A stretch of DNA of 45,811 nt from Opitutia bacterium (GTDB lineage: Bacteria > Verrucomicrobiota > Verrucomicrobiia > Opitutales > T3Sed10-336). The notes beneath the pieces were generated by a model. The model did no database searches. It was not told the DNA's origin and saw nothing but the letters and a program-made list of their open reading frames with translations. Location: positions 1 through 45,811 of the forward strand of contig PWMU01000002.1 in assembly GCA_003558065.1 (NCBI GenBank), read 5' to 3'. Position 1 is the stretch's first letter, and every line of letters begins with the position of its first letter. The translations under genes were made by a program, and so were the position numbers. Below, one piece after another: positions 6,185 to 27,613 of this stretch.

Positions 6185-7603
6185 ATGAAGATCTGTTGCA
6201 TAGGGGCGGGGTATGTCGGGGGGCCGACAATGGCGATGATCGCGTTGAAGTCGCCTGATGTCCGCGTGACGGTCGTGGACATCAACGAAGACCGCATCGC
6301 CGCCTGGAACTCCGGCGAGCTTCCGATCTACGAACCGGGGCTGGACGAAGTGGTGCGCGAGTGCCGCGGGCGGAACCTGTTTTTTTCGACGGACGTGGAC
6401 ACGGGGATCCGCGAGGCGGATATGATCTTTGTCAGCGTCAACACCCCGACCAAAACCTACGGCATCGGCGCGGGTCAGGCGGCGGATCTGCGTTTTGTGG
6501 AATTGTGCGCCCGGCGGATCGCCAAGGCGGCCGACGGGCCGAAGATCGTGGTCGAAAAGTCCACGTTGCCGGTACGGACGGCTGAATCCATCAAGCGGAT
6601 ACTCAGCGCCAACCTGAACGGCCACGGCTTTCAGGTTCTCTCGAACCCGGAATTTCTCGCCGAAGGCACGGCGATCCGCGATCTGAGCGAGCCCGACCGG
6701 GTGCTGATCGGCGGCGAGGATACGGACGAAGGCAGGCGGGCGGTCGAGTCGCTCGCATCCATTTACGCGAACTGGGTTCCCCGCGAGAACATCATCACCA
6801 CCAATCTCTGGTCCTCGGAGCTCTCCAAGCTGACCGCCAACGCCTTTCTGGCGCAGCGGATATCGTCGATCAACGCGATCTCCGAGCTTTGTGAAGCGAC
6901 GGGGGCGGACGTGGACGAAGTCGCCTATTCGATCGGCCGCGACAAGCGCATCGGCCCGAAATTCCTGAAAGCCTCGGTCGGGTTCGGCGGGTCGTGTTTT
7001 CAGAAGGACATCCTGAACCTGGTTTACCTGTGCCGCCATTTCGGCCTGCCGCAAGTCGCGGACTACTGGGAACAGGTGGTCCGGATGAACGATCACCAGA
7101 AGAAGCGATTTGCGGAGAAGGTCGTGAAGACGCTGTTCAACACGGTTTCCGGAAAGAAAATCGCCGTCTTCGGATTTGCCTTCAAGAAGGATACGAATGA
7201 TACCCGGGAATCCGCGGCGATCTACGTCTGCCGCGATCTGCTGCAAGAAAGGGCGGTGCTATCGATTTACGATCCGAAAGTCTCGCCCGAAGAGATCCGC
7301 CGCAATTTCGATCAGCAGGACTGGAGCGCCGGACCCGCGGACGACGGACCGGGCGTCACCATCGCCGACAATCCCTACGAGGCGGCGGAAGGCGCGCATG
7401 CCGTGCTGATCCTGACCGAGTGGGACGAGTTCCGGGAACTGGACTACAAGCGAATTCGGAAGGGCATGCACCAACCCGCCTTTCTGTTCGACGGACGCAA
7501 CATCATGGACCTCGCGAATCTCCGGAAGATCGGGTTCGAGGCATTCGGAATCGGCAAGGGGGCGCCGGCGCTGAACCTTCCTTCGGGGGCGGGTTCAGGA
7601 TAA
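6185..7603 (+). CDS. ugd: UDP-glucose 6-dehydrogenase, animal-like type
   Basis: This 472-residue enzyme oxidises UDP-glucose to UDP-glucuronate with two NAD+, supplying acid sugar for extracellular polysaccharide. The NAD-binding Rossmann motif GAGYVGGP is at residues 7-14. The catalytic cysteine is Cys271 in [10 protein letters not shown]. The central substrate-binding part includes [11 protein letters not shown] and [16 protein letters not shown], and the C-terminal domain includes [14 protein letters not shown]. Long stretches ([40 protein letters not shown]) match what I recall of animal UGDH much better than the shorter bacterial Ugd/TuaD type. A Shine-Dalgarno GGGAGAG lies 8 nt before the ATG. 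The next gene begins 18 nt downstream, so co-transcription with the PHP gene is possible. Confidence 0.95.
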
Positions 7604-10786: not shown

Positions 10787-13090
<2,304 letters not shown>

Positions 13091-24951: not shown

Positions 24952-26379
24952 TTATCCCTCGGATTGCCCCAGCGCCCGAACATAGCGGTGGGGCACCCCG
25001 TCGAAGGAGCCGTTGGTGAAGAAGACGACAACCCGCCGGGCGGCGGGGGTCGCGCTCACCCGCTCAAGCACGTCGAGCACCTCGGCGTTCTTTTCAACGG
25101 CCACGGCGTCGATCCCGTGCTCGGCGAGTTTGCGGGTCACGCAGGCCGTATCGAGCCGCTCTTCGGGAGTCAGCAGGTGCTTTCGGCTGATTTCCCCCAG
25201 AACCACTCGGTTCGCCGCGGACAAGGCCTCGACCAAAGCGTCCTGAACCCCGCGGGTGCGCATGGTGTTGCTGCGCGGCTCGAGCACGGCCCAGAGCTCG
25301 CCCTGCGGAAAGCGATTGCGGAGCGAACGGAGGGTTTCCCTGACGGCAGTCGGGTGGTGGGCGAAATCTTCGTAGACGGTGATTCCCCGGGCTTCACCCA
25401 GTTTCTCCAGACGGCGTTTGACGCCGACATAGCCGGAAAGCGGAGCGAGGGACAACCGGGAGGGGTCGTCGGGATAAAGGGCCAATCCAGCGGCCAACGC
25501 GGCCATGGCTGCGTTTCGGGCGTTGAACAACCCGCCCTGCCCCCAGGAAACGGTCCCCCATTCGGCCCCGCGCCAGAGCAGGCGAAACGAAGCCCCCTCT
25601 TCGGTCTCGCGGAAACTGACGATCCGGAGATAGGCGGCTTCACCGGTTCCGACGGTCGCCACCCGTGTCCAGGGCGCCGATTCCGCCCGAGGACAATTCG
25701 GATCGTCGCTGTTCGCCAGGATCCAGCCGTTGGCGGGGACGAGTTTGTAGAGATGCGTGAAGGTACGTTGAACGTCCTGCAGGTCGCGAAAGATATCGGC
25801 GTGGTCGAATTCGATATTGTTTACGACTAGGATACGGGGCAGGTAATGAATAAACTTGCTGCGTTTGTCGAAAAACGCGCTGTCGTATTCGTCGCCTTCA
25901 ATCACGAACGGATCGGTTTCACGCCCGAGTTCGGCCCCCCGGGGCAGGTCCCGCGGCACACCGCCCACAAAATACCCCGGTTGGGCCCCCGCCGCCTGCA
26001 GGAGGAGGGCGGCAAGCGCGCTGGTGGTGGTCTTGCCGTGGGTGCCGGTGATCACGAGGTTGTTGCGTTCTTTCAGGATAAAGCGTGAGAGCAGCTCCGG
26101 AAGCGAGGTGAATGCGGTTCGCCGCTCGGAGAGCAGCCATTCCACTTCGGGATTGCCGCGGGTCATGGCGTTGCCGACGACCACGAGGTCGGGCGTCTCC
26201 GACGCCAGCGCCCCTTCGTCGAAGCTGCTGCGAACCTTCACTCCGGCCTTCCGGAGCACGTCGCTCATCGGCGGGTAGACCTGGTCGTCCGCACCGCTCA
26301 CCTCGTGGCCCAGCGACTTCATAAGCAAGGCCGCATTGCCCATCGCCGTGCCACAGATACCCAGAAAATAAATACGCAT
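24952..26379 (-). CDS. mpl: UDP-N-acetylmuramate:L-alanyl-gamma-D-glutamyl-meso-diaminopimelate ligase
   Basis: This 475-residue Mur-ligase recycles the murein tripeptide by joining it to UDP-MurNAc with ATP, in the cytosol. The first domain has the Rossmann start MRIYFLGICGTAMGNAALL. The ATP-binding P-loop is TGTHGKTTT (residues 111-119). The signature DEYDSAFFDKRSKFIHYLPR and NNIEFDHADIF is specific to Mpl and sets it apart from MurC. Domain 3 carries YEDFAHHPTAVRETL and LEPRSNTMR. Its stop faces the GH20 stop at 30 nt, with no clear terminator. Upstream is a REP-like element, then the HPF-sigma fusion gene in the same direction; the 144-nt gap leaves co-transcription possible. Confidence 0.95.
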   Translation of the reverse strand: MRIYFLGICGTAMGNAALLMKSLGHEVSGADDQVYPPMSDVLRKAGVKVRSSFDEGALASETPDLVVVGNAMTRGNPEVEWLLSERRTAFTSLPELLSRFILKERNNLVITGTHGKTTTSALAALLLQAAGAQPGYFVGGVPRDLPRGAELGRETDPFVIEGDEYDSAFFDKRSKFIHYLPRILVVNNIEFDHADIFRDLQDVQRTFTHLYKLVPANGWILANSDDPNCPRAESAPWTRVATVGTGEAAYLRIVSFRETEEGASFRLLWRGAEWGTVSWGQGGLFNARNAAMAALAAGLALYPDDPSRLSLAPLSGYVGVKRRLEKLGEARGITVYEDFAHHPTAVRETLRSLRNRFPQGELWAVLEPRSNTMRTRGVQDALVEALSAANRVVLGEISRKHLLTPEERLDTACVTRKLAEHGIDAVAVEKNAEVLDVLERVSATPAARRVVVFFTNGSFDGVPHRYVRALGQSEG

Positions 26380-26523: not shown

Positions 26524-27576
26524 CTAAACGCGGCTGCCGGGCTCCGCTTCTTCAAACAGCAACGTGCGCAGGCGGCTTTGAAGGAGAGCGATGATTTCCG
26601 CAACCTCGCTTTCGGGAATTCTTTCCACGAGCGCTACTTCGACAGCACTCAACCCTTCCACAAAGTGAAGCTCGAACACATGCTGCTCCTTCAGCGGCCA
26701 GTCGTGGGCGACCTCATGAAGGTAATTGAGCAGGTCGCGCCGTTCGACGGCTTCCTCGGGGGAATCCTCCGGATGCGGCAGCACCTCGGACAGTTCCGCC
26801 ATCGCGGACTCGATCGTGCGGTCGACCAGGTCGAGGGGACGCGCCGGATCGTAATCGCCGCCCCGCTCGGCTTCCTCCCTGAGAAACTGTTGCTCGCGCA
26901 ACGAAATATTGTCACGTTGCTCCTGGTCGAGCCGCTCGAACCGGCGGTTCAATTCCTCCTTGATCAGGCTGTATATCCAGAGGCGAAAGGACAAATCCGG
27001 CGGTTTCGCATCCGGTTCAGCCAGGGCCAGGCGGGCCGCCTCGTCGAGGACGCCCCGCGGGTCGATGGCGCCCTTGAAAATGGCACCTGACAGCTCCGCC
27101 CGGCGCACCCGCCGGCATACGTAATTAAAGAAACGGGGATAATTGTCTTTGAGGAGATCGCGAATAATCTCGGCCAGCGTCTGCGGCCCAACGCCGTTCT
27201 CCTGGGGGACCTCGGAAAACCGCACCGTCACTTCCTCCGGCCTGCGCCCGCGACGCTTCCAGACGGATTCATGCCGCAACTCGGCCTTGTGGTCCTCGAG
27301 TTGCCGTATCAGAACCCTGACCGCCTCGTCAAAAGCGGGAATCACCTCGCGGTGACTCTTCTCTCCCCTCAACACATTCGAAGGCAACCGGAGGGTCAGA
27401 GCGGCGGTAATCAGGGGCTTCCGCGCATGCTGCTCGAAAGCGATGTGCAGGTGAACCGCATCCGGAGGAAACCGCCTCAAATGCTCCTCAAGCTTGCCGA
27501 TCTTTTCGCGGAGTTTGCTCTCCAATGCGGAGTCTCGCTCAAGATTTTTCGTAACGATATTCCACGTCAATTCCAT
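26524..27576 (-). CDS. Fusion of ribosome-hibernation (HPF/RaiA) domain to a sigma-70-like region
   Basis: This is a 350-residue cytosolic protein. Residues about 1-112 match the S30AE fold of HPF/RaiA: LREKIGKLEEHLRRF, VHLHIAFEQHARKP, LRLPSNVLRGEKSHREVIPAFDEAV, IRQLEDHKAELRHE. After a basic RRGRRPEE linker, residues about 140-225 resemble sigma region 2 (IIRDLLKDNYPRFFNYVCRR, then FRLWIYSLIKEELNRRF). Residues about 285-345 resemble region 4, with the helix-turn-helix lead KEQHVFELHFVEGLSAVEVALVERIP. Region 4 is imperfect and DNA binding is unproven. Whether it acts as a sigma factor, an anti-sigma decoy, or only at the ribosome cannot be told. GGAGG precedes ATG 27576; a TTG at 27585 is the longer alternative. 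Its own promoter is probable. Confidence 0.8.
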   Translation of the reverse strand: MELTWNIVTKNLERDSALESKLREKIGKLEEHLRRFPPDAVHLHIAFEQHARKPLITAALTLRLPSNVLRGEKSHREVIPAFDEAVRVLIRQLEDHKAELRHESVWKRRGRRPEEVTVRFSEVPQENGVGPQTLAEIIRDLLKDNYPRFFNYVCRRVRRAELSGAIFKGAIDPRGVLDEAARLALAEPDAKPPDLSFRLWIYSLIKEELNRRFERLDQEQRDNISLREQQFLREEAERGGDYDPARPLDLVDRTIESAMAELSEVLPHPEDSPEEAVERRDLLNYLHEVAHDWPLKEQHVFELHFVEGLSAVEVALVERIPESEVAEIIALLQSRLRTLLFEEAEPGSRV

Positions 27577-27613
27577 AGCCTCCAACGCTCCTCATGAAGA
27601 TTGCCGAGACTCT

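Follow-up and report, generated by a model that had tools for sequence, protein, structure and literature searches.

In the 45,811-nucleotide stretch of Opitutia bacterium DNA analysed here (the window), one gene encodes a protein in which an HPF/RaiA domain is followed, after a flexible linker, by a sigma2-sigma4 module, and proteins of this architecture almost certainly make up a family that is widely spread and has not been described. The first-pass annotation had placed an HPF/RaiA and a sigma-70-like domain in a single chain, in an uninterrupted frame at 26524-27576: both the coordinates and the frame hold, the gene lying on the minus strand, and the pairing of domains is borne out by Pfam, by TIGR02937 and by fold matches. 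The same annotation knew of no described protein with this combination, and indeed none was found in the literature searched, most subscription-journal papers being outside its coverage. We tentatively propose, with less than even confidence, that the protein is a stress factor which would engage the ribosome through one of its ends and, through the other, RNA polymerase or an anti-sigma factor, with no reading of promoters.

Research on dormant or stressed bacteria treats ribosome hibernation and the reprogramming of RNA polymerase as two systems, each with its own proteins, and a family with both modules in one chain is a concrete object for testing their physical coupling; the fusion may link the shutdown of protein synthesis to the control of transcription under stress. 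The family also assigns domains for the first time to orf11, a gene without explained function in the mobile island for heat and chlorine tolerance (tLST/LHR). This island is also present on many Klebsiella, Enterobacter and Acinetobacter plasmids, and a laboratory E. coli strain deleted for orf11 is already in the literature.

Domain architecture of the fusion protein

The gene encodes 350 residues, from an ATG at 27576 to a stop codon at 26526-26524, and the following features were assigned:

26524..27576, minus strand: HPF-sigma-like fusion gene (open reading frame; homologues in two congeneric genomes)
27579..27583, minus strand: putative ribosome-binding site GGAGG, just upstream of the ATG (from the sequence)
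27268..27570, minus strand: S30AE/HPF/RaiA domain, residues 3-103, beta-alpha-beta-beta-beta-alpha (Pfam E 4.1e-11; VIA Z 13.8 to HPF)
27184..27267, minus strand: linker, residues 104-131, starting with a conserved basic WKRRGRR and of low model confidence (alignment, AlphaFold model)
26929..27183, minus strand: sigma2-like domain, residues 132-216, with the lowest computable dN/dS (TIGR02937, model, fold match)
26761..26928, minus strand: sigma2-sigma4 linker, residues 217-272 (model)
26548..26760, minus strand: sigma4-like domain, residues 273-343 (Pfam, TIGR02937, model, fold and profile matches)
26569..26613, minus strand: sigma4 recognition helix, residues 322-336, having lost the basic residues that usually contact DNA
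24952..26379, minus strand: mpl-type Mur ligase, 475 residues (downstream of the fusion gene on the same strand, 144 bp gap)

The S30AE assignment is firm, as PF02482 matches residues 6-100 with 43.9 bits (E 4.1e-11) for a cut-off of 23.7, and the other verrucomicrobial fusion members also lie above this cut-off. For the second part, the NCBIfam model TIGR02937 (sigma70-ECF) matches residues 139-338 with E 5.8e-10 and 39.0 bits, below its cut-off of 42.9, which an alphaproteobacterial relative clears with 44.3 bits, and Pfam Sigma70_r4_2 reaches E 0.025 at best. A PDB sequence search matched the first part to HPF/RaiA chains and the second, weakly, to sigma-28/FliA-type chains. A scan for promoters and terminators gave nothing above chance.

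The protein qualifies as an HPF-domain protein and is sigma-like, without being filed as a sigma factor, since the hallmarks of promoter recognition are lost. RefSeq and NCBI names of its relatives (sigma-70 family, sigma-28, FliA) reflect the C-terminal half only. S30AE proteins were once named sigma-54 modulation proteins, a label unrelated to the sigma-like half considered here. Short HPF/RaiA and long HPF have the S30AE fold and the conserved core in common with the fusion; where the latter has sigma2-sigma4, however, short HPF has nothing and long HPF has its 100S-dimerisation domain, PF16321, for which no Pfam match was found in the fusion at E up to 1. ECF (group IV) sigma-70 factors have the sigma2 and sigma4 folds in the same order, but in the fusion the linker between them is longer and the recognition helix is acidic. 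The archaeal HibA (PMC13324472) carries a CBS module before its HPF domain, whereas the window protein starts with HPF and carries a sigma-like partner after it; in its text, the 2026 survey of HPF/RaiA domain fusions that describes HibA discusses CBS modules only.

Conservation and selection within the genus

All three genomes of the genus contain the fusion, the two congeners (sediment MAGs labelled Verrucomicrobia and Opitutales) carrying an uninterrupted 350-residue protein that is 69% and 63% identical to that of the window. A sequencing frameshift unique to this genome, which the first-pass annotation had considered, is thus excluded, and the ungapped protein in three genomes rules out an assembly artefact altogether. 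The same annotation had considered that the sigma-like half might lack any significant match, and here we find TIGR02937 at E 5.8e-10 together with an ECF sigma fold match; profile E-values, fold match and full collinear homologues also rule out sigma-like helices arising by chance.

In the comparison within the genus, synonymous changes are near saturation and far above amino-acid changes in both halves, the sigma2 region having the lowest dN/dS (0.08-0.10) among the regions where it was computable. The fusion gene is under purifying selection. The genome encodes in addition two stand-alone HPFs on other contigs, which indicates that the fusion is an additional, specialised protein and not its sole HPF.

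Distribution of the family

Conservation across Verrucomicrobiota, which the first-pass annotation had put forward for checking, is not what we observe, the occurrence in the phylum being patchy. Outside the genus, none of five other genomes of the family has the fusion and, among several hundred genomes searched, it occurs in at least two from other families, G383 (32% identical) and G484 (31%), both with the two domains in one chain; in these alignment searches at most five candidates per genome were scored, so that some members may have been missed. Scans of a genome-contig collection returned the fusion in the two congeneric MAGs only. Long S30AE frames in G020 (283 residues) and G041 (269 residues) turned out to be ordinary HPFs with a 5' open-frame extension and were rejected. 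In G383, the fusion gene is preceded by two Hsp20 genes and a gene for a DegP-type protease.

The main reservoir of the family is the Proteobacteria, where its members lie inside tLST/LHR islands. A tblastn search with the window protein matched 11 proteobacterial plasmids, each in a single collinear alignment that spans 80% or more of the protein, with E down to 3e-13. A search with a betaproteobacterial member recovered 277 plasmid records, of which 238 cover 80% or more of the query; most are from Klebsiella, Enterobacter, Acinetobacter and Escherichia. Most of the alphaproteobacterial members (Shinella, Agrobacterium, Paracoccus, Ciceribacter, Caulobacter and M. extorquens AM1) are flanked by a ClpK-type AAA ATPase and by HdeD, and the block also contains Hsp20, FtsH, thioredoxin and a KefB-type antiporter, while betaproteobacterial members adjoin Hsp20, GroESL and DnaK; YfdX is also among the neighbours of proteobacterial members. 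Neither the phage records nor PHROGs contained the fusion. The viral collection gave a single match, on the IMG/VR contig IMGVR_UViG_3300045950_000267 (L117:1-13128), in which the HPF-sigma gene sits on a tLST segment about 80-93% identical to alphaproteobacterial plasmids: the viral status of this contig is doubtful, or the island lies on a mobile element.

The sigma-like half also occurs alone. One such protein is encoded in the verrucomicrobial genome G493 (L086:7143-7793), without an HPF domain and near a response-regulator protein; another, a short relative likewise devoid of HPF, is on an Azospirillum brasilense plasmid (L081:7926-8597), adjoining genes for CbpM, a DnaJ-like protein, a universal stress protein and DegQ. 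In a tree of the sigma part, all fusions form one group apart from ordinary verrucomicrobial sigma factors, with moderate support (85/77), and the two stand-alone proteins are nested within it, as expected of one fusion followed by two losses of HPF, the rooting being uncertain.

Relationship to orf11 of the tLST/LHR island

The copies in Klebsiella, Enterobacter, Acinetobacter and Escherichia are annotated as hypothetical proteins between hdeD-GI and trx-GI and correspond to orf11 of tLST/LHR, which occurs in 152 of 5426 complete E. coli genomes (about 3%) and whose identity to any functionally known protein is stated to be below 30% (PMC8290217). A direct Pfam search of the gamma-proteobacterial orf11 gave no S30AE match. 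Nevertheless, a profile of the proteobacterial N halves, orf11 included, has HPF/RaiA proteins as all of its 19 best PDB matches (best E 2e-4), and the orf11 N half alone, aligned by hhalign to a profile of 29 stand-alone HPFs, scores 54% with E 1.3e-4, for about 1% with shuffled columns and under 1% with C halves as controls. The profile of proteobacterial C halves finds only sigma factors and PhyR in the PDB (best E 3e-13), and the orf11 C half matches betaproteobacterial members at 99.5% in hhalign.

The orf11 sigma half is 17% identical to that of the window protein, and the direct verrucomicrobial to gamma-proteobacterial comparison is weak when taken alone; the chain of homology runs through the alpha- and betaproteobacterial members. 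Judged from these profile comparisons, orf11 of E. coli, Klebsiella, Enterobacter, Acinetobacter and Pseudomonas belongs to the same family, collinear and homologous over both halves. It differs from the window gene in being far diverged, with S30AE below Pfam detection, and in lying between hdeD-GI and trx-GI, whereas the window gene lies by mpl. Two E. coli records, H130 (NZ_CP081783.1) and H131 (NZ_JBRNHC010000002.1), match orf11 over only 51% and 37% of its length.

Loss of promoter-reading hallmarks

Region 4 had been noted as degenerate, and this proved correct: the recognition helix is acidic, its net charge averaging -2.2 over 19 fusions, while 33 ordinary sigma factors from the phylum average +0.9. 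The region 2.4 aspartate, present in 27/33 of the ordinary factors, is absent from all 19 fusions, and a region 2.2 position that is glutamine in 21/33 of the former is aspartate in 18/19 of the latter, the sequences being related and the counts therefore not independent. Between regions 2.1 and 2.2, fusions are also longer than ordinary ECF sigma factors, by about ten residues. Taken together, these sequence features argue against an ordinary promoter-reading sigma factor.

The first-pass annotation had offered promoter switching, or a sigma factor held on ribosomes, as possible roles. The features above bear directly on the possibility, which we consider unlikely, that the protein is a true alternative sigma factor with HPF as its sensor, which idle ribosomes would keep inactive until their occupancy changed, freeing it to transcribe stress genes, its own island perhaps among them. 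Besides the complete sigma2 and sigma4 folds of the model and the naming of several relatives as sigma-70 family factors by NCBI, it has in its favour that members from the window's genus and from related Verrucomicrobiota retain a basic region 2.4 helix (+2.2), so that some DNA contact is possible in these members, and that the fusion of regulatory domains to ECF factors is a recognised pattern (PMC3426412, PMC8999054). However, the acidic recognition helix and the disappearance of the usual region 2.4 residues are family-wide, and the TIGR02937 score stays just under the cut-off.

The HPF part of the fusions maintains the core and a conserved H96/K107/R108 pattern, and the basic residues R35, R91, K107 and R108 are kept. 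The equivalents of residues 19, 25, 88 and 94, near-invariant lysine or arginine in stand-alone verrucomicrobial HPFs, are mostly non-basic in fusions, a loss that counts against the proposed mechanism, though the part is more basic overall, with a net charge of +8.5 in fusions and +4.3 in stand-alone HPFs.

Predicted structures

The AlphaFold model of the fusion (mean pLDDT 66) has an HPF fold followed by sigma2 and sigma4 helices, with low pLDDT in the linkers at 99-132 and 238-276. In Foldseek/VIA comparisons, residues 3-103 resemble HPF of E. coli and V. cholerae (Z 13.8, rmsd 1.5-1.9) and residues 132-344 resemble Bartonella RpoE in the RpoE/NepR complex (Z 13.8, rmsd 3.2, 157 aligned). 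An alpha-type member sharing 23% identity with the window protein was modelled as well, and this second structure gives comparable matches to HPF (Z 14.9, rmsd 1.5) and to an ECF sigma factor (Z 14.6, rmsd 2.9). Both models resemble the compact anti-sigma-bound sigma of RpoE/NepR (rmsd 2.9-3.2), unlike RNA polymerase-bound sigma (rmsd about 26). The compact arrangement fits a sigma mimic; as the models were built from only four sequences and may copy the compact form, the sequence depth is too low for this to carry weight.

A narrower form of the stress-factor reading that we prefer takes the protein as a sigma mimic of the PhyR kind, which would titrate an anti-sigma factor and so free a general-stress sigma factor, ribosome binding being the switch in place of the receiver domain. 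PhyR, a sigma-mimic anti-anti-sigma factor, has a sigma-like domain without promoter use that matches both models (Z 9.6-12.4), and in the fusion family the HPF domain takes the place of its receiver domain, no Pfam match to Response_reg being found in the fusion protein. In agreement, the Pfam profile PF22233 of the PhyR sigma-like domain matches a Burkholderia member (E 1.1e-5), the C-half profile search returned the PhyR entries 3t0y, 3n0r and 2lfw, and the models take the anti-sigma-bound shape. We nevertheless hold this narrower form to be improbable: no anti-sigma gene was noticed beside the members inspected, the shape may again be copied, and NepR/EcfG systems are alphaproteobacterial (PMC8999054), whereas the family is also found in Verrucomicrobiota and Enterobacteriaceae.

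Possible mode of action

In the stress factor that we tentatively favour, proteotoxic or stationary-phase stress would lead the HPF domain to park on idle 30S or 70S ribosomes, and the sigma-like module would act by protein-protein contact, with the RNA polymerase core or an anti-sigma factor bound by it as a sigma look-alike; a single molecule would in this way couple ribosome hibernation to an alteration of the transcription machinery. Ribosome binding by the HPF domain is suggested by its predicted fold, binding to RNA polymerase or to an anti-sigma factor by the fold and by the constraint on sigma2, and stress induction of the fusion genes by their neighbours. The concept has a parallel in E. 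coli, in which Rsd and RMF/HPF jointly silence transcription and translation in stationary phase (PMC6904343), but there Rsd is an anti-sigma factor separate from RMF/HPF, whereas the window fusion is one chain.

Evidence from E. coli weighs on this proposal. In MG1655 lacZ::LHR, seven tLST genes are needed for heat or chlorine resistance and orf11 is not among them (PMC8407380), its deletion having caused no defect in either, which argues against a large role in the survival of acute stress. Lipid oxidation was likewise unaltered by deletion of orf11, no phenotype of which is reported, and in the LHR2 variant orf11 is broken, split by orfC/orfD (PMC5383660). Along with the degenerate recognition helix, these observations would also suit an HPF variant in which only the ribosome-binding half is functional and the sigma-like half has decayed into a relic that serves as a spacer or stabilising tail, comparable to the C-terminal domain of long HPF. 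Such a protein is rather improbable, as no part is better conserved in the genus than sigma2 and the sigma part persists without HPF in G493 and on the Azospirillum plasmid, which indicates that it is kept for its own sake.

A bolder version, also unlikely, would make the stress factor a single-chain dual hibernation factor, with the HPF end in the decoding site of the ribosome and the sigma-like end on the sigma-binding surface of RNA polymerase, so that one protein would silence both machineries or hold them together. In that case it would supply the missing role of tLST orf11, and of an old family that has passed from phylum to phylum.

Gene neighbourhood in the window and its genus

The gene that follows the fusion is mpl in the window and in both congeners, whose copies are 71-72% identical to that of the window. 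The window gene has mpl and no stress gene as its neighbour and lies outside any stress island, which counts against the stress mechanism. A UDP-glucose/GDP-mannose dehydrogenase gene with a near-identical protein start is found on the contig with mpl and the fusion both in the window (6185-7603, plus strand) and in the congener G002 (L085:13045-14442), a sign that the neighbourhood has been retained in part. Immediately upstream of the fusion in G002 (L085:8854-10239, contig G002:C44), a single protein combines PTS EIIA-2, a DacZ_P sensor and a DisA-type diadenylate cyclase (Pfam E 5e-25, 9e-17 and 7e-19, respectively). Elsewhere in the window, at 10787-13090 on the plus strand, subunits I (COX1) and II (FixO) of a cbb3 oxidase occupy one frame of 767 residues, with CcoG-, DsbD_2- and P-type-ATPase-like genes downstream.
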